This document shows, one piece after another, positions 26,365 through 36,785 of a stretch of 43,048 nucleotides of DNA (position 1 is the first letter of the stretch; each line of letters opens with the position of its first letter). A program made the position numbers and the translations under genes. The DNA is taken from IMG/VR virus record IMGVR_UViG_3300032157_000023, positions 1-43,048 of that record; one strand, given 5' to 3'. A model generated the notes under the pieces. The model saw nothing but the letters and a program-made list of their open reading frames with translations. It searched no databases and was not told where the DNA came from. Source of the stretch: a virus.

Positions 26365-26579
26365 CGGCCAGCCCTCCGAAGCGCCTCGTACACGCGCAGG
26401 CTCCGCGCAGCTCTTTCGAGGTACTCAGCGCTCTGCGCTGTCTCCGCGACGCACGGGTCCCGAGGCGTCGCGCTGCGCTGGCGGACCACTTCGGCCTGAA
26501 GCGCGGCGATGGTGTCGTCGGCGGGCTCGAGCAGGGCGTCGTGGTAGGCCTGATCGGCGGCAACGGACGCGGCGTTCAC
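26361..26579 (-). CDS. Small helical hypothetical protein
   Basis: This 72-residue protein is Ala/Arg/Glu-rich and helical (EPADDTIAALQAEVVRQR, AEYLERAARSLRVYEALR). ATGA overlaps occur at both ends, with the recombinase and with the methylase-like gene. No family recognised. Confidence 0.65.
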   Translation of the reverse strand: MNAASVAADQAYHDALLEPADDTIAALQAEVVRQRSATPRDPCVAETAQSAEYLERAARSLRVYEALRRAGR

Positions 26580-28120
26580 GCGGCCTCCATCTCGTCAGGG
26601 TCGTACAGACCCATCGTTCCGCCGGGGTCGACGATGCGAGCCAGCTTCGCGCCGGCCGTCTTGATGAGCATGTCCTTCGGGCGCTTCACCCAATTGCTGG
26701 GCTCACCCGTGCGCTTGCTCGGCTTGGTTAAGCCGGCTGCCTCTGCGTCCTTGATCGTGTACGTGTACGTTACCGGCCTCTCGCGCCCCACGAGCTTCGC
26801 TTCCCACGTCGCCTGCTCGTTGGTGACCTCGACTAGCGTCATGTACTCGACGCGCTTGCTGCGTTGAGCTAGCGCAATGATGAGCTGCGCCGAGGCGCAC
26901 GGCTTACCCTCCACCAGGTGGAATGAGTCGAGCGCGGTCATCGCGCCGAGACCGAGCTCCTTGCCGCGCATGATGATGGTGAAGATAGCCTCGGGGTTGT
27001 TGAACTTCTCGTAGAGCCGCGAGTCATGGACCCACAGCGCGATGTTGCGCGCGGCCTTCAAGTCCTGCGGCTGCAAGTCTGCGGTTACCAAACCGTGACC
27101 GTTCGAAGCGCGAACGATCGCCTCCTGTTCCTTGCGAGGCTCAGGCTCCTTTCGCGTTTCCGGTTTGGGCGGCAACGGAGTGAGGCGCGTCACGCCCGGC
27201 GGCGGGCTGATCGGAACGTCGTCCGCTTGTTGCTTCGGCTTCTCTTCAAACTCGGCCTCTTCCACAGCTTGCATGCGTCCTCCCGATATGGGCTTCACCT
27301 CTTTGCGCTGAAGCAGCGCGGTCACGTCGAGCGGCACATCTGTGCGCAGCGTTGTGAGCTCTGCGTCACGGAACACCTGTGCCTTGCCGATGCGCAGCGC
27401 GCTGATCAGCTTCTCGTTCAGGTCACACTTCAGGTCCCGATCGCTGTCGCTCTCGAGGTCCGCGTACATCGCGGCGAGGGTGCCGTAGGCCTGGAGAATC
27501 TTCGCGGCGCCCTTCGGCCCGATACCTTTGACGCCCGGGATGTTGTCACCGGTGTCACCGACGAGCGCCTGGTACTCCGCCATCTGCTGCGGGAACACGC
27601 CGAACTTCTCGGTCACCTGCGCTGGGCCCATGACGACCTCTGGTCGGTCGCCTATCGCTGGCACGAATTGCCGGATCGCTCCGCCCACGCATTGCGATAG
27701 GTCCTTGTCGGAGCCCACCATGCGGATGTCTTGGCAACCCAGCTCGAACAGCTTATCGGCGAGCGTGGCGATCACATCGTCGGCCTCGAAGGTCTCGGCC
27801 TTGGCCACTTGGTAGCCGTCGCGATCGATGCGCTCCTTCAGCCACGCCATCGCGGCTTTCATGCCGTCGCTCGGCGCTTCGCGCTGTGCCTTGTACTCGG
27901 GGTACAGCTTCTTGCGAAAGTAGGGCGGGCTGTCGCAGCAGACGATGACGTGCTCCACCGCGTCTCGAGTGCGAGCCAGTTCTTCGAGCACGCGCTTCGG
28001 CGCGTCGTTGATCTCGGCGTCTGCTGCTTGAGCGTGCCAGTGGCGCCGGAATGAATACGAGAGATCGAAGAGCGCCACTGAGCGCGGCGCTGCAACTTGA
28101 ATGTGTTCTGCCTGAGCCAT
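26576..28120 (-). CDS. Fusion of a 5'-3' exonuclease (FEN/PolA type) and a RecT-like annealing domain
   Basis: This protein has 514 residues from ATG 28120, with GGGAGG upstream. Residues 15-270 are a full 5'-nuclease of the DNA polymerase I N-terminal type: Asp19 (ALFDLSYSF), SPPYFRKKLYPEYKAQRE, TFEADDVIATLAD, VGSDKDLSQ, and the GDTGDNIPGVKGIGPKGAA helix-hairpin-helix with its metal-binding Asps. A Pro/Lys/Glu linker (about 275-345) leads to residues 350-514, which follow the RecT single-strand annealing pattern: NPEAIFTIIMRGKELGLG, SFHLVEGKPCASAQLII, KDAEAAGLTKP, NWVKRPKDMLIKTAGAKLAR and a GLYDPDEM end. The phage thus appears to hold resection and annealing in one chain. The annealing assignment is by pattern. 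Confidence 0.85.
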   Translation of the reverse strand: MAQAEHIQVAAPRSVALFDLSYSFRRHWHAQAADAEINDAPKRVLEELARTRDAVEHVIVCCDSPPYFRKKLYPEYKAQREAPSDGMKAAMAWLKERIDRDGYQVAKAETFEADDVIATLADKLFELGCQDIRMVGSDKDLSQCVGGAIRQFVPAIGDRPEVVMGPAQVTEKFGVFPQQMAEYQALVGDTGDNIPGVKGIGPKGAAKILQAYGTLAAMYADLESDSDRDLKCDLNEKLISALRIGKAQVFRDAELTTLRTDVPLDVTALLQRKEVKPISGGRMQAVEEAEFEEKPKQQADDVPISPPPGVTRLTPLPPKPETRKEPEPRKEQEAIVRASNGHGLVTADLQPQDLKAARNIALWVHDSRLYEKFNNPEAIFTIIMRGKELGLGAMTALDSFHLVEGKPCASAQLIIALAQRSKRVEYMTLVEVTNEQATWEAKLVGRERPVTYTYTIKDAEAAGLTKPSKRTGEPSNWVKRPKDMLIKTAGAKLARIVDPGGTMGLYDPDEMEAA

Positions 28121-28151
28121 TGAATCGCCTCCCAATCCCCCCTCGTTGGTT

Positions 28152-28987: not shown

Positions 28988-30171
28988 CCGCGTGCCTCTG
29001 GTTGGTAGAACTCCAGACGCGGACCCCCTACCCAGAGCTGGGCATCGAGCGCCGTCTGGCACGTCTTCGGAACGATGAGCGCGAAGTCGCGCTTGGTCGG
29101 GCAGCGCACGCGCAGGAACCGCGTCGCTGGTGAATCGGGCAGGTCGACGTCGATGAGCATCCCGACGAGAGGGTCCGCGTCAGAGTCGATTACTCGGTGC
29201 GGTAGCTTGGCAATGACGTTGGGCCAGCCGATGATTTCGGCGGCGGCGCGACGCTGCTCGATGTTCTGCCAGGTCAGCGCGGTCTCGGGCGCGAGCTGGT
29301 ACCGCTGCTCGATCCACTCCGCGGGCACCTGCGTGCCATGCCACGCGTAGACCTTGTAGCCGTCACGGCAGTCGATGGCGGGGCCCGTCTCATTGTGCAG
29401 CACGCGTTCCGCGTCGAACGAGATCGCGCGGTGGCGCTCGGCGCACAGCACAATCCCTTCGAACGGGAACCACCAACCACACGCACGTTGAAGCCGGTCC
29501 CACTCATTCAACAGGGTCCGGTCGCCTTCGGCGTACCTAACTCCAGCGCGTTCGGCACCGACGTAGTACGCGACCCAGTACAGCCACTCTCCTCCCGCAT
29601 AATAGTAGGGGAATTCAAGCTTCTGCGACTCGAGCTGCGACCTGAGCTGCGACCCGAGCTGCGACCCGAGCTGCGACCCGAGCTGCGACCCGAGCTGCGA
29701 CCCGAGCTGCGACCTGAGCTGCGACCTGAGCTGCGACCCGAGCTGCGACCTGAGCTGCGACCCGAGCTGCGACTCGAGCTGCGACTCGAGCTGCGACCAG
29801 AGCTGCGACCCGAGCTGCGACCCGAGCTGCGACCAGAGCTGCGACCTGAGCTGCGACTCGAGCTGCGACCCGAGCTGCGACCCGAGCTGCGACCCGAGCT
29901 GCGACTCGAGCTGCGACCTGAGCTGCGACAGATCCGCCCCAAGTTTCTTCAGCATGTTGTACGCGAGCACGCACGACGCGGGCCCATCGAACCACATGAA
30001 CGCCGGCGCCGGTTTGCCGATGCGCGCGTAGAAGCCGGTGATAACAGCTTGTGTGGCCTCACGATCGGCGGGCGCCGTGCTTAACCCAGCCGCTCGGTAT
30101 TCTTCGCGCAGAGCGTAGATCTCCGCCCACTGCGACTCAGACAACTTGGTCTTGCGCTTGGTCATGTTCAT
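28984..30171 (-). CDS. DUF6745-like protein with 25 tandem SQLx repeats
   Basis: This 395-residue protein starts at ATG 30171 after GGGAGGAGA. The N-terminal 80 residues are helical ([18 protein letters not shown]). Residues about 81-183 are 25 copies of Ser-Gln-Leu-x, with x only Gly, Arg, Glu or Trp. The C-terminal 210 residues ([45 protein letters not shown]) follow the DUF6745 type found in GC-rich bacteria with similar short repeats. The function is not known; the repeat would form a helical or solenoid spacer. It lies in the accessory segment between integrase and recombinase. Confidence 0.75.
29624..29930 (-). repeat. 12-bp tandem repeat array inside a coding gene
   Basis: About 25 units of consensus GAGCTGCGACCC (plus strand) run without interruption. 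On the coding strand each is CAG CTC NGG/GAG TCG, and only the third codon varies: GGG, AGG, TGG or GAG, one base from each other. The unit is a multiple of three, so copy-number change keeps the frame. It is prone to slippage. Confidence 0.95.
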
Positions 30172-31895: not shown

Positions 31896-32152
31896 AGGCC
31901 CTCCTTCGGACCGCGAACGTCCAGGTCGAGGATCGTCAGCTTCAGAGCGCTGTAGGCGTCAGCTTGGCCGGCGGCGCTGGTTTGGCGGCGGTAGACGTAC
32001 GTCAGCGCCCGCCGCTCGACGCGCTCGAGGTACTCAAGCCGAGCCCGGATGGCCCTCAGATCGCCGTAGTCCAGGACGATGCACGGCTCGCCATCTGGCA
32101 GGGTGTGGGCACAGGCCTCGTGGAGCTTCTCGATCGGCGAGGGGTGCTTCAC
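31892..32152 (-). CDS. Small hypothetical protein
   Basis: This protein has 86 residues from GTG 32152, fixed by GTGA overlap with the HNH stop. KHPSPIEKLHEACAHTL is followed by a helical charged stretch (YGDLRAIRARLEYLERVE). No known domain. Confidence 0.6.
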   Translation of the reverse strand: MKHPSPIEKLHEACAHTLPDGEPCIVLDYGDLRAIRARLEYLERVERRALTYVYRRQTSAAGQADAYSALKLTILDLDVRGPKEGL

Positions 32153-32631
32153 GACGCCACCTCCGCGCGGCACAGACCCTTTGCCAGACGGCGCGCGTGC
32201 TGCGACGTGATGCCGAAGCGCCTAGCGAGATCGACGCCGTCGCCGTGGCGAAGCGGGCCGTAAGCGCGCAGCTCCCGTACTTGAGCGTCGGTGAGCTTTG
32301 CCGTGGGAGCGTGCTCGCCGGTCGGAACGCGGCGGTTCTTCGCTTGCTCCGAGCGGGTTGCCCAGCGGCAGTTCCCGGGCTCGTAGCCGCGGTTGTTGTC
32401 GATGCGGTCGAGGGAGTGCTCCGGGCTCGGCTTGGGCCCCATGTCGCGCAGAAAGGTCTCGAAGCTTTCGAGCCAGGCCGGACAGACGGTGATGCCGCGT
32501 CCGCCGTACCGGCGGAACCACGCGTTGTGCGGGTTCAGGCAGCGCTGCTTCATGCTGCCCCAAGCGCGGTACTCCGGCGTCCGCAACTCGTCGCTGCGAG
32601 CGCAGCCGTGCTTGCTGGATCGGCGCCTCAC
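32149..32631 (-). CDS. HNH endonuclease of a second type with C-terminal HTH
   Basis: This protein has 160 residues from GTG 32631, overlapping the integrase stop (GTGA). The nuclease head differs from the other three: EYRAWGSMKQRCLNPH, RYGGRGITVCPAWLESFE, SLDRIDNNRGYEPGNCRWAT, RSEQAKNRR, the pattern of HNH/AP2-associated phage nucleases. The tail again has TAKLTDAQVRELR and a helix-turn-helix (DLARRFGITSQHARRLA), as in the paralogues. It sits immediately downstream of attP and the integrase stop. Confidence 0.85.
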   Translation of the reverse strand: MRRRSSKHGCARSDELRTPEYRAWGSMKQRCLNPHNAWFRRYGGRGITVCPAWLESFETFLRDMGPKPSPEHSLDRIDNNRGYEPGNCRWATRSEQAKNRRVPTGEHAPTAKLTDAQVRELRAYGPLRHGDGVDLARRFGITSQHARRLAKGLCRAEVAS

Positions 32632-34175
32632 GACGCACCTCTCGTGCGAGACAGCGCGCGCGAAAGTGGCGCTAAACATGCCGCCTGACCACCGCGGTCG
32701 ATGGCCCGGAGAGCGAGCGTTAGCCCGATCAGCTCCCCGTTAACCGTTTCCGATGACTGTTCGGAGGTCTCAGCCGTGTTTATGACGGCCGGCGACGGGT
32801 CGTAACCCGTCGTAATGGCTTGAATCTGATCGCGCGCCCGGCAGGATTCGAACCTGCGAACCTTCGGCTCCGGAGAGCGTTGACTATCTTGCGTAAGTCT
32901 CATCATTACCCCGCTGTTCCTCGTCATGACGACGTTTGGGTCGCTATTGATGACTTCCCTAACGGTCGTCGTCAGTGACTCTTTAGCTTGTATACTCGTC
33001 GTATACCCACCCGTCAAGCTCTCGACGTCGAAATTAGCGAGCGCGCCAGCGGGCGCCTCGAGCACTTCGGAACTCCTCCGGTAGCCCATGTGGGTGGGCA
33101 TGTCGGTGTGGCCCATCAGATCCATCATCGAGCCGACGGGCACCCCGGCGGCATGGCCCTGGATGACTGCGCGCCGGCGGAGGGAGTGGAAGTCCGCACG
33201 TCGGCTCGTGGCCGTGTCGACTTGCAGCGCGCACCGTCCGTCGGGCAGCGTCCGCTTGACGCCAGCGAGCTGAAAGGCGCGACGCAGCCGCTTGCTCCAG
33301 GTGTTGCCGCGCGCCTTGGCCTCGCCCTCTCGCTTGCCGCTGCGCACCGGGAAGATGGGCCCGTCCGGCGGGCAGCCGAGGTCGTGCCACCAGGACTCGA
33401 GAGCGCGCGCCACGTGCTGCGGCAGCGCCAGGGTTGACCAGCTGTCCGTCTTCGGCCGGTGGATGCGCGCGGTTAGCCACTGCAGCGTATCCACGTATTC
33501 CCACCGCCCAGCAAGCAGATCGCTCGTGCGCTGCCCGCCACCGTCGCGGCCGAACACGATCGCAACCCGGAGCTCTTTGTCCACGCGCGCGCAGGACACG
33601 ACCTTGGCGAGCTCGTGATCGGTGGGCACCGTGCGTGGCCGGCGGTCGACCTTGGCGTCCGAAGGTAGCTCCACCTTGGCGCGCGGGTTCTCCTTGAGCA
33701 CGCCGTCCCGCCACAGGCGCTTTAGGACGGTTGAGCAATCGTCGAGCACGTGCTTGATCGTTGAGCGGCTCTTGCCGGCAGCGACCATGGCCTCGAGCAC
33801 CTCATCGAGATGCGACGGCGAGATCGTGTCGACGCGCAGATGTCCCAGGTGAGGGAAGGCCCACTTTCCGACTCGGCGCAGGCGCTCGTCCCTGTGCTTG
33901 AGGCGCTGCGTTGCGACGATGCGCTGCGTTGCTTCGGCAAATGTCTCCACCGCCTTCGCAGCCACGGGCTCTGCCGGCCGCTCGCCGACACGAATCTGCT
34001 CGGCCTTACCGCGCGCAACGGGGACCATGTTGGTGCCGAGCGCGATGTGCTTGCGTACCCTGATACCGTCAACCACGAGCCAGCCGTGCCACGCCCATTG
34101 CTGCGTGGGCTCTAACCACTCGAGCGAACCTTTACCGTAGCCGAGCGGGATTCTCTTGGCGGCGCGCCTGGTCAT
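32628..34175 (-). CDS. int: Tyrosine integrase carrying attP in its own reading frame
   Basis: This 515-residue protein has an N-terminal arm/SAM-like core-binding domain (residues 1-190: DTISPSHLDEVLEAMVAAG, STIKHVLDDCSTVLKRLW) and a catalytic domain (about 190-370). The catalytic pattern includes Arg in ATSRRADFHSLRRR, His in LMGHTD and Tyr near residue 364 (THMGYRR), with an early Arg in FGRDGGGQRTSDLL. The enzyme joins attP to attB. After the Tyr, about 150 further residues follow, and codons about 434-448 are the 3' half of a tRNA-Arg gene, so recombination there would replace the last 70 or so residues. ATGA at 34175 links it to the RHH gene. Confidence 0.9.
   Translation of the reverse strand: MTRRAAKRIPLGYGKGSLEWLEPTQQWAWHGWLVVDGIRVRKHIALGTNMVPVARGKAEQIRVGERPAEPVAAKAVETFAEATQRIVATQRLKHRDERLRRVGKWAFPHLGHLRVDTISPSHLDEVLEAMVAAGKSRSTIKHVLDDCSTVLKRLWRDGVLKENPRAKVELPSDAKVDRRPRTVPTDHELAKVVSCARVDKELRVAIVFGRDGGGQRTSDLLAGRWEYVDTLQWLTARIHRPKTDSWSTLALPQHVARALESWWHDLGCPPDGPIFPVRSGKREGEAKARGNTWSKRLRRAFQLAGVKRTLPDGRCALQVDTATSRRADFHSLRRRAVIQGHAAGVPVGSMMDLMGHTDMPTHMGYRRSSEVLEAPAGALANFDVESLTGGYTTSIQAKESLTTTVREVINSDPNVVMTRNSGVMMRLTQDSQRSPEPKVRRFESCRARDQIQAITTGYDPSPAVINTAETSEQSSETVNGELIGLTLALRAIDRGGQAACLAPLSRALSRTRGAS
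32833..32875 (-). other. attP core: 3' half of a tRNA-Arg (CCG) gene
   Basis: On the minus strand the segment reads anticodon loop CTCCGGA (anticodon CCG), anticodon 3' stem GCCGA, variable region, T-stem/loop GCAGG-TTCGAAT-CCTGC, acceptor 3' strand CGGGCGC and a discriminator. The D-arm, acceptor 5' strand and anticodon 5' stem are absent. A lone tRNA 3' half next to an integrase is the usual attP of phages integrating into a tRNA gene, here restoring the host gene. It is unusual in lying inside the integrase ORF. The variable region has six bases, one more than usual. Confidence 0.82.
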
Positions 34176-34378
34176 CGCTTGCCCTTTTGCAGCTTCCTGT
34201 GTTCGGCCACGACGTGGCTCCTAACCCAGGCTGAGCCGTTCAGGTGGGCAGCCGCTGCGAGCTCGTTCAGCATGCGCAGTTCGTCTTCTGTGAACCGGAT
34301 GTGTTTCAGTTTTGTCTTGTTGATTGGAGGCTTGGCCTTCATGGCGCCGTAAGTATACATCGCGTCACACCCCGTCAA
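34172..34378 (-). CDS. Ribbon-helix-helix-type small regulator
   Basis: This protein has up to 68 residues (ATG 34378 by ATGA overlap; ATG 34342 is an alternative). The middle (KHIRFTEDELRMLNELAAAA, then SAWVRSHVVAEH) has the strand-helix-helix pattern of RHH/MobC-like DNA-binding proteins. Between excisionase-like gene and integrase it may act as a recombination directionality or control factor. Confidence 0.6.
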   Translation of the reverse strand: MTGCDAMYTYGAMKAKPPINKTKLKHIRFTEDELRMLNELAAAAHLNGSAWVRSHVVAEHRKLQKGKR

Positions 34379-34626
34379 TCAGTGATGTTTTGCTCGTGCC
34401 ACGCTTTGCAGTCCGCGAACACGAACCGGTGCCCCGGCTTTGTTGGCATGCCCAATTTCTTCCACCTATCAATAGTGGCAAGCGACACGCCGAAGCGTGC
34501 TGCCAGTTGCTTTCGCTTGAGCAGCAGCGGTTCCGGCTTGGCGCCACGTCCGGCCAATACTTTATCCACAACCCGCTCGAGCGTCTGCTCTAGCTCATCG
34601 AGAGGGACCACCACGACCTTCGTCAT
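34375..34626 (-). CDS. Excisionase-like HTH protein
   Basis: This protein has 83 residues from ATG 34626 (ATGA overlap). A helical N-terminus (LDELEQTLERVVDKVL) precedes a MerR/HTH_17-type winged helix: LKRKQLAARFGVSLATIDRW, KKLGMPTK, GHRFVFADCKAW. AlpA/Xis proteins have this form and bend attachment-site DNA to favour excision. Position just before the integrase supports the call. Confidence 0.75.
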   Translation of the reverse strand: MTKVVVVPLDELEQTLERVVDKVLAGRGAKPEPLLLKRKQLAARFGVSLATIDRWKKLGMPTKPGHRFVFADCKAWHEQNITD

Positions 34627-34985
34627 AACCAACCCCAGTCCCCCCGAAAGCAAACCCGGACTGTACCACCGTGCAACGCTTCGGGAAGGCCTTGCGAAAG
34701 AATCTCACGAAGCGCGCTTAAGACGCGACCTTGCGCTGCCGTTCGCGTCAACGCGAGGGCGACGTGCGCATTCGTAACGGTGTCTCGTCCCAACCTCCGC
34801 GCCTTCTCGAGCGCCGCCAGTTGCGCTACGTCCTCGTTGTTGAGCCACATGCACTGGTTGCCGCCCTCGATGGTACGCCGTGCAAGGTTCGCGCCGCTGA
34901 GCACTTTCAACATCGCGCGCTGAATAGCCGCACGCCGCGCTCGCCGCGCCTTCAGTTGTGTTGGTGTATGCTTGCGCGCCATCAC
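34623..34985 (-). CDS. Hypothetical basic/helical protein
   Basis: This protein has about 120 residues (GTG 34985 or ATG 34982). The first 30 are very basic (KARRARRAAIQRAM); the rest is helical (LNNEDVAQLAALEKARRL, VTNAHVALALTRTAAQGR). Overlaps at both ends. It may bind DNA. No family recognised. Confidence 0.6.
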   Translation of the reverse strand: MMARKHTPTQLKARRARRAAIQRAMLKVLSGANLARRTIEGGNQCMWLNNEDVAQLAALEKARRLGRDTVTNAHVALALTRTAAQGRVLSALREILSQGLPEALHGGTVRVCFRGDWGWL

Positions 34986-35617
34986 CCCACCTCCGTGGCC
35001 AGCGCCTGGCCGGCGCCACCCATGCGCCGATCAGCGCGCGCCAGGTTCTTCAGCGCCTTGGCTTCGCACTGCCGAGCTCGCTCGCGGGTGCGACCACCCA
35101 ACTTCTCAGCGACCTCAGAGAGCGTTGCCTCATGCCTACCGAAGCGCTCCTGCACCACGAACCGCAGCCGCGGGCTCAACGTGTTGAGCAGCGCCTGAAC
35201 GTTCTCCGCTATCTCGCTCTGGTGAATGGCCTCGACCGGATCGTCATCCACGCCGATGGTGTCGAGGATCGTACGGTCTTCGCCGTCAGCGTGAGTCAAC
35301 GGCGCGTCGAGGCTCAGCGTCGGCGGCGGTAACGGGATGCCGTCGCGCCGGTAACGCTCGTGCATGTTGCACGGGATGCGGATGTTGCGGCCGTGGTTCT
35401 GGGCCTCGCGGAGGATGGATTGCCAGACCCAGTAGGAAGCGTATGTCGAGAACGCGATGCCTCGCGACTCGTCGAACTTGTCCGCGGCTTTGAGCAAGCC
35501 GATGCTGCCGGCCTGGATCAGATCCTCGTATTCGAGCGCGCCCTTGCACCAAGCGAGGAACTTGCGCGCGGTGTGGTGTACGAGCCCTAGGTGTTGTGTT
35601 GGGTTGATGGTGTTCAT
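34982..35617 (-). CDS. Phage sigma70-family factor (regions 2 and 4)
   Basis: This protein has 211 residues from ATG 35617 (ATGA overlap). The longer ORF upstream is not supported. Region 2 is clear: LVHHTARKFLAWCKGALEYE, DLIQAGSIGLLKAADKFD, AFSTYASYWVWQSILREA and a basic RNIRIPCNMHER. Region 4 is LSPRLRFVVQERFGRHEATL, SEVAEKLGGRTRERARQCE, KALKNLAR. It should bind host core RNA polymerase and direct it to phage promoters. In a genome without its own polymerase it is the best candidate for turning on a later gene class. Confidence 0.85.
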   Translation of the reverse strand: MNTINPTQHLGLVHHTARKFLAWCKGALEYEDLIQAGSIGLLKAADKFDESRGIAFSTYASYWVWQSILREAQNHGRNIRIPCNMHERYRRDGIPLPPPTLSLDAPLTHADGEDRTILDTIGVDDDPVEAIHQSEIAENVQALLNTLSPRLRFVVQERFGRHEATLSEVAEKLGGRTRERARQCEAKALKNLARADRRMGGAGQALATEVG

Positions 35618-35868
35618 TGGTTCGCCTCGGGTTGGAAGACGCGACCCGACTCGATGTCGCGATGTCGGGCGCAAAGTGTGAGCGGGCGCGCGCCAGGAGT
35701 GCTGGCGTCGACGTACCGGACCTCGAGCGTGAGCGGATGCGCTACGACCCACGCGATCGGGTCGTTGCATCGGAGGCAGATCGCCACGTCGTTGACGAAA
35801 CGCATGACCTTCATGCGGCGCGCGAGAGCGAGCAGCTGTTCACCGGTGAGGGCTTCGAATTGGATCAC
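35614..35868 (-). CDS. Small zinc-knuckle protein
   Basis: This 84-residue protein has a CxxC near residue 32 (CLRCNDP) and a CxxH (LCARHRD) near residue 66, a treble-clef-like zinc site. N-terminal helix GEQLLALARRMKVMRF. It is flanked by ATGA overlaps with the initiator and sigma genes. A regulatory or replication accessory role is possible. Confidence 0.65.
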   Translation of the reverse strand: MIQFEALTGEQLLALARRMKVMRFVNDVAICLRCNDPIAWVVAHPLTLEVRYVDASTPGARPLTLCARHRDIESGRVFQPEANQ

Positions 35869-36785
35869 GCCGCCACACTCCCCAGGATCGGATCCGTCTC
35901 TCCACGGGAGAGCGCCATGAGTCGACGCCCGAAGCCCTCGTCGTTGTCCTTGGTGCTGCGCTGGTCAGGTAGGCCAGACTTGATGAAGAGCGCAGCGAGC
36001 TTCTCGAGGGGGAGGTTGTGCTGCTTGCAGAAGGCGCGATGCTTGGCGTTGGGTTCCCAGGTGGGGCCCGGCGCTTTGCCGCCGCGGGACGTCTGCGCCG
36101 CAGCGCGTGAGCGGTTCGAGATGGCCTTCTCGCGCGCGCGCTGCAGTAGCCAAGCATACAGGCGCTCGACGCCGTTGGGCGGCAACCCCTGGCCCCAGTA
36201 GTGCGCCCAGGTCGACTTTGCCTGATCGACGGGCGTGGCCTCGATGACTGCCTGCTCGAGGTAGTCCGCCGGCGGCTCCTCGCACGGCATCGAGTACGTG
36301 CGCGGCGTCGGCTCACGCCCCCCTGCACCCCCTGTTGGGGTTGGGAGTTGGGGTTGGGAGTTGGGAGTTGGGGTTGACGCCACTGAGTGGCCACTGAGTG
36401 GCGACTTTTTCTGACTTAAGGGAATTGGTTCAACCTCACCCTCAGGCGGTGGCGGAAGCTCGCTCGCGGGCTCTTTGTTATTTGGACGTTGGTGCTTGGC
36501 GAAGTTCCGGATGGCGCCGTACTTCCGACCGGCAACCACGTAGCAAGCGACCAGGCCCGCGCCTGCGAGCGCATCTAGCACCTCGGAGAAGTCGCCACTC
36601 CAGTAGGGGGCGATCTGACTCTTCAGCGGCAGAGGCTTCCACTCGAAGCGACCCTCGCGATCGGCGTGGCACCAGAGCCCCTGGAAGGCACGGAGGAGCG
36701 GCAAATGGGGGAAGGCTTGTTCGAGCATCCAGAACTCGTCGTCGATGAATAGATCGGGCTTCAGCTGGCGAATGCGTCCGCGCAC
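35865..36785 (-). CDS. Replication initiation protein (winged-helix, lambda O-like organisation)
   Basis: This protein has 306 residues from GTG 36785. Residues 1-105 form the winged helix common to phage initiators of the O/DnaD-type group: RIRQLKPDLFIDDEFWMLE, LRAFQGLWCHADREGRFEWK, PLKSQIAPYWSG, GLVACYVVAGRKYGAIRNFA, KHQRPNNKEP. A low-complexity Pro/Thr/Gln linker (about 130-155) is encoded by the iteron-like DNA. The C-terminal helices (YLEQAVIEATPVDQAK, KHRAFCKQHNLPLEKLAAL) could contact the host helicase loader. With no helicase, primase or polymerase in the genome, it probably recruits the host replisome. Confidence 0.8.
   Translation of the reverse strand: MRGRIRQLKPDLFIDDEFWMLEQAFPHLPLLRAFQGLWCHADREGRFEWKPLPLKSQIAPYWSGDFSEVLDALAGAGLVACYVVAGRKYGAIRNFAKHQRPNNKEPASELPPPPEGEVEPIPLSQKKSPLSGHSVASTPTPNSQPQLPTPTGGAGGREPTPRTYSMPCEEPPADYLEQAVIEATPVDQAKSTWAHYWGQGLPPNGVERLYAWLLQRAREKAISNRSRAAAQTSRGGKAPGPTWEPNAKHRAFCKQHNLPLEKLAALFIKSGLPDQRSTKDNDEGFGRRLMALSRGETDPILGSVAA
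36334..36430. other. Probable replication origin inside the initiator gene
   Basis: 36334-36376 holds overlapping copies of GTTGGGAGTTGGGG-type repeats (GTTGGG repeated five to six times). 36380-36401 holds two exact tandem copies of CCACTGAGTGG, each an inverted repeat around one base. Then 36403-36427 is the most A/T-rich stretch nearby (ACTTTTTCTGACTTAAGG). Iterons followed by an A/T-rich unwinding element inside the initiator gene is the lambda O/ori arrangement. The call is from DNA pattern; no direct proof. Confidence 0.65.

Follow-up and report, generated by a model that had tools for sequence, protein, structure and literature searches.

Integrase Gene and Its Neighbors

The stretch of DNA analyzed here, from an uncultured phage (43,048 nt, referred to as the window), carries on its minus strand a gene for a 515-residue tyrosine recombinase (int, 32628–34175), identified from its ORF, its Pfam matches, and its catalytic residues. 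Matches to Phage_int_M (PF22022) and Phage_integrase (PF00589) at or over the Pfam cutoff, together with a complete R-K-H-R-H-Y catalytic set (R216, K242, H330, R333, H356, and Y365), place the protein among the tyrosine recombinase phage integrases. The catalytic core extends to about residue 370 and is followed by an AT-richer linker that harbors arm-type repeats. Upstream of int, on the same strand, lie genes for a 68-residue ribbon-helix-helix (RHH)-like protein (34172–34378), which is NikA-like at a score below the cutoff, and a 92-residue helix-turn-helix (HTH) protein (34375–34653). The latter matches the excisionase/regulator PHROG 66 as well as PHROGs 57 and 668, making it a candidate directionality factor or excisionase. 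The HTH gene, the RHH gene, and int are joined by successive 4-nt overlaps, the stop codon of the RHH-like gene overlapping the start of int in the sequence ATGA. On the other side of int is an HNH endonuclease gene (32149–32679, minus strand). A sigma-70–family factor containing regions 2 and 4 is encoded at 34982–35770, just upstream of the HTH-RHH-int group.

Homologs of the integrase were absent from phages at a cutoff of 1e-5, searches of phages and plasmids with loose cutoffs returned generic weak matches only, and peptide patterns recovered no relatives in IMG/VR or GTDB. A search of Acidobacteriota yielded generic recombinases only, and searches for the integrase or a lysogen found nothing in 398 genomes of the phylum of the Nitrococcus genome or in 396 genomes of the phylum of the Actinomycetota MAG.

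A tRNA-Arg 3′ Half Lies In Frame within the Integrase Gene

The preliminary description had located attP inside the integrase gene, and the sequence bears this out. A 43-nt tRNA-Arg(CCG) 3′ half, CTCCGGAGCCGAAGGTTCGCAGGTTCGAATCCTGCCGGGCGCG, is found at 32833–32875 on the minus strand, in the same sense as int, and is read in frame as int codons 434–448. When 84,980 species genomes were scanned with a pattern built from this half, which tolerated zero to two bases at the variable-loop indel, nine loci matched, and ARAGORN identified all of them (9/9) as tRNA-Arg(CCG). In each of the nine, identity between the phage and bacterial sequences begins at the anticodon loop and breaks immediately 5′ of it. 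The edge of the anticodon loop is the usual boundary of the core in tRNA-type attP sites. The likely crossover is the anticodon loop CTCCGGA (32869–32875, minus strand), which forms the 5′ start of the tRNA fragment. The phage fragment keeps the tRNA pairing positions intact, no CCA follows its discriminator base, and a hybrid of a host 5′ half and the phage 3′ half is called tRNA-Arg(CCG) by ARAGORN. The fragment therefore has the makeup of a tRNA-type attP, being a 3′-half copy that starts at the anticodon loop and can rebuild the tRNA, with one extra base in the variable loop. The exact 43-mer is absent from the viral contigs searched, and Rfam returned no tRNA match to the embedded fragment, only a sub-threshold chance match on the opposite strand.

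The ends of the contig (1–167 and 42882–43048) overlap by 167 bp, of which 165 are identical and two are mismatched. The genome is circular or permuted, about 42.9 kb in length, and derives from a mixed population. Because this overlap shows the contig to be circular, the site is an intact attP and neither an attL nor an attR. The corresponding attB would be a host tRNA-Arg(CCG) gene. No integrated copy, attL, attR, or attB was found with peptide patterns in IMG/VR and GTDB, in Acidobacteriota, or in the 398- and 396-genome phylum sets.

Y365 precedes codon 434, and the entire catalytic core is therefore encoded upstream of attP. The catalytic tyrosine had been described as upstream, which is correct, at about residue 364, which is off by one. 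The integrase extends some 81 residues beyond the crossover point and 67 beyond the tRNA fragment (residues 449–515; 32628–32832, minus strand), such that a tail would indeed be lost upon integration, with these lengths in place of the earlier estimate of about 70 residues. A single-sequence AlphaFold model of the integrase is poor (pLDDT 34) and at most hints at two tail helices, predicted with low confidence at residues 475–493 and 501–511. Taken together, these features make it very likely that this phage carries its attP embedded in int.

Arm-Like DNA Flanks the Core

Between the catalytic core and the tRNA half, int codons 390–433 or thereabouts (32876–33010, minus strand) consist of arm-like DNA with low GC, a weakened codon-position signal, and GTCGT repeats. 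GC is 49% over these codons compared with about 68% in the core, and the codon-position GC signal is weak beyond residue 390. Both properties are as expected for DNA under binding-site constraint, which this segment may represent. GTCGT(A/C)(A/T) repeats flank the tRNA core on both sides, at 32799, 32809, 32927 (−), 32968 (+), and 32998 (+). The first two are paired GTCGTAA repeats and lie in what would be the other arm (32793–32832, int codons 449–461). These flanking GTCGT(A/C)A repeats look like putative arm sites. In a scan for clustered 8-mers over every 230-bp segment, the attP region, with five copies of CGTCGTAA, ranked 13th of 1,067 and was about the fourth distinct locus, behind a tandem-repeat gene and two others.

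Comparison with Mx8 and Other Known Systems

The preliminary description likened this arrangement to mycobacteriophages whose attP lies in the repressor gene. The likeness is real in that, in the integration-dependent immunity of mycobacteriophage BPs, attP also resides in a lysogeny gene whose C terminus changes (PMC4557955), but there the attP-bearing gene encodes the repressor and here the recombinase. A closer precedent, which had been overlooked, is the Myxococcus phage Mx8, where attP is in the gene for the integrase itself (IntP/Int), as described by Tojo in 1996 and Magrini in 1999 and covered in later reviews. According to these reviews, integration exchanges a 112-residue tail for 13 residues (PMC4701971), and this C-terminal swap is reported to change the activity or specificity of the enzyme (PMC6070905, PMC4701971). 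In the Mx8 record (D86464), the recombination core (2387–2415) is inside intP (1154–2755), with six repeats annotated, and corresponds to codons 412–421 of 533, downstream of the catalytic Tyr 354. The geometry here is near to this, with Tyr 365, a core at codons 434–448, and 515 residues in all. As in Mx8, attP lies in frame, inside the ORF, and downstream of the catalytic tyrosine, which is well separated from it; repeats surround the core, and a long tail, lost on integration in Mx8, would be lost here as well. Moreover, Mx8 uoi overlaps int, and here small DNA-binding HTH/RHH genes overlap int upstream.

However, there are differences between the two phages. By our own reading of the Mx8 record, its tRNA 3′ end, which includes the CCA, is antisense to int, whereas the tRNA half is in the sense orientation here. 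Consequently, int of Mx8 remains adjacent to the tRNA gene once this is restored and continues into the 5′ half from the host, while the present gene would end in the displaced 3′ half and host flank. The two integrases share 25% identity over 110 residues (E of 2e-4, for a single comparison), which falls short of homology, and Mx8 is absent among the matches listed in the loose-cutoff phage search. Judged by sequence, the integrase is unrelated to Mx8 Int beyond the common fold. Islander specifically accommodates integrases that extend across attP, naming Mx8 and SSV (PMC4383910). The principle of attP within int is already known from Mx8, though rarely reported, and the present phage is a variant of it and not a separate category.

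In the archaeal SSV-type (suicidal) integrases attP is also within the integrase gene (PMC8371274). In those enzymes the catalytic part is C-terminal and is severed by integration, which inactivates the gene; here Tyr365 comes before codon 434, so attP is not upstream of the catalytic residues and the catalytic core stays intact. The same review describes recombinases that disrupt their own gene as exclusively archaeal (PMC8371274). Streptococcal ICEs integrated in rumA likewise have an att site in the cognate integrase gene and two integrase lengths (PMC4701971), but their enzyme is a serine integrase with a non-tRNA target, in contrast to the tyrosine integrase and tRNA of this phage.

A Candidate Second Instance in Two Uncultured Phages

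Two uncultured phages, IMGVR_UViG_3300031200_000002 (L012) and IMGVR_UViG_3300049452_000027 (L014), provide a further comparison. L012 has an exonuclease/RecT protein in common with the window (47% identity), and L014 is related to L012 through its integrase. In the window the exonuclease/RecT gene (26576–28135) is a single ORF with a 5′-3′ exonuclease N terminus and a RecT-like C terminus, an apparent fusion common with L012. The L012 (5878–7476) and L014 (2989–4584) integrases are 531–532 residues long and 77% identical to each other. The catalytic tyrosine of the L012 enzyme is residue 392, and in both phages the tyrosine is followed by an identical 44-bp block, at codons 437–451 or so, which in L012 is flanked on each side by TGGGCCA repeats. 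Synonymous divergence between the two genes is 0.07 in the block and 0.42–0.56 in the main body. Beyond the block dN/dS is 0.4–0.5, which indicates that constraint at the protein level resumes in the tail.

These phages thus resemble the window in that int, past the tyrosine, contains a block resembling attP together with arm repeats, but their core is no recognizable tRNA, unlike the tRNA-Arg(CCG) half in the window. They are a candidate second instance of attP within int with a conserved tail. The L012/L014 and window integrases show no significant BLASTP match. The window tail (LTLALRAIDRGG...) and the L012/L014 tails (LTLAIANATAAGK...) look alike by eye, but shuffles gave P values of 0.14–0.2 and homology is not claimed; across comparisons of the window tail with other integrase tails, homology was likewise not significant (P of 0.14–0.32).

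Mx8 has long been a rare case, and there is now a second, and probably a third, unrelated phage lineage with a like layout. This suggests a recurring means by which one recombinase gene could yield two products, one in the free phage and one in the prophage, and the layout makes it easy to test whether direction or stability is governed by integrase tails. We raise as a tentative idea, one we think may well be wrong, that bacterial phages have repeatedly, perhaps convergently, adopted the strategy of placing attP within int so that integration exchanges a selected module at the C terminus; this phage would be a sense-oriented variant with a host-written tail.

Predicted Consequences of Integration

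In the model suggested by this arrangement, the integrase would recombine the anticodon-loop core of the phage with the host tRNA-Arg(CCG) gene, rebuilding the host tRNA with the 3′ half from the phage. In the prophage, the HNH gene would adjoin the restored tRNA. The part of int encoding the core would end up at the far end of the prophage, where its frame would continue into the host tRNA 3′ half that had been displaced. As the tRNA half is in the sense orientation, the new tail would come from this displaced half and its flank: codons after about 433 would be exchanged for the host tRNA 3′ half (encoding SPEPKVAGSNPAGR with a canonical tRNA) followed by host flank. The preliminary description had the lost tail replaced by sequence beyond the host tRNA; the replacement would instead start with the host tRNA 3′ half itself. 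Predicted chimeras with the nine known tRNAs all have SPEPKVAGSNPAGR and then flank, with a stop at 452 residues in one and the others still open about 80 nt on. That integration would swap the C terminus of the integrase, as had been proposed, follows from the in-frame attP with the attB deduced above, and we regard it as likely.

Under this model, the free phage would integrate by means of the full-length 515-residue form. In the prophage, excision would draw on the chimeric form, whose activity or stability would probably differ, as in Mx8, together with the adjacent HTH protein as the likely excisionase. By analogy with Mx8, we infer that the swap may control direction or stability; whether it has any regulatory consequence is close to evenly balanced, tipping slightly against.

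Openness of the Tail and Alternative Explanations

The phage fragment has one additional nucleotide in the variable loop, AGGTTC compared with AGGTC in the nine bacterial tRNAs, and without it the int frame stops at residue 464. The extra base was not seen in the 84,980-genome scan, though the pattern would have accepted it, and no tRNA-Arg with a six-base variable loop occurs in 396 Acidobacteriota genomes. In dinucleotide shuffles the 67 codons after the tRNA are open by chance in about 25%, the 44 arm codons before it in 9%, and both in about 2%. The open tail after attP is only weakly non-random. Because the frame hangs on a one-base insertion and the later part is so often open by chance, a functional, selected tail is no more than plausible.

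These same observations favor a passive read-through, in which the complete enzyme would extend only to about residue 390, where the codon-position signal fades, the frame is open by chance, and exchanging the tail alters neither activity nor stability. Against this stand the low joint chance of openness of the two parts, the protein-level constraint on the L012/L014 tail past the block (dN/dS about 0.45), and the altered enzyme produced by the swapped tail in Mx8, and we consider it unlikely, if deserving of attention. It is improbable that the extra base arose from faulty sequencing or assembly, or as a private mutation, in which case the integrase would truly end at residue 464, some 30 codons beyond the crossover, and only a short peptide would be swapped. 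The base is indeed missing from all nine matching bacterial genes and its removal exposes the stop, but it lies outside any long homopolymer run, it sets a frame that stays open through 67 codons, and the tRNA carrying it is still accepted by ARAGORN; even were it spurious, attP would be inside int. Finally, the deduced attB, the extra base, and the missing CCA might suggest that the fragment is only a remnant and that another site serves as attP. This is very improbable for a fragment that sits in an integrase gene, begins precisely with the anticodon loop, retains its pairing positions, and has arm-like repeats on both sides. A Mx8-like tyrosine integrase gene that runs through its own attP, with its tail swapped on integration, is on balance the probable reading of the locus.

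Elsewhere in the window, a 12-bp tandem repeat, CTGCGACCCGAG, in 25.6 copies with a 93% match, occupies 29623–29929 inside a gene for a DUF6745 protein and gives a four-residue protein repeat, and a GTTGGG-type short tandem array is located within a coding region at 36334–36376.
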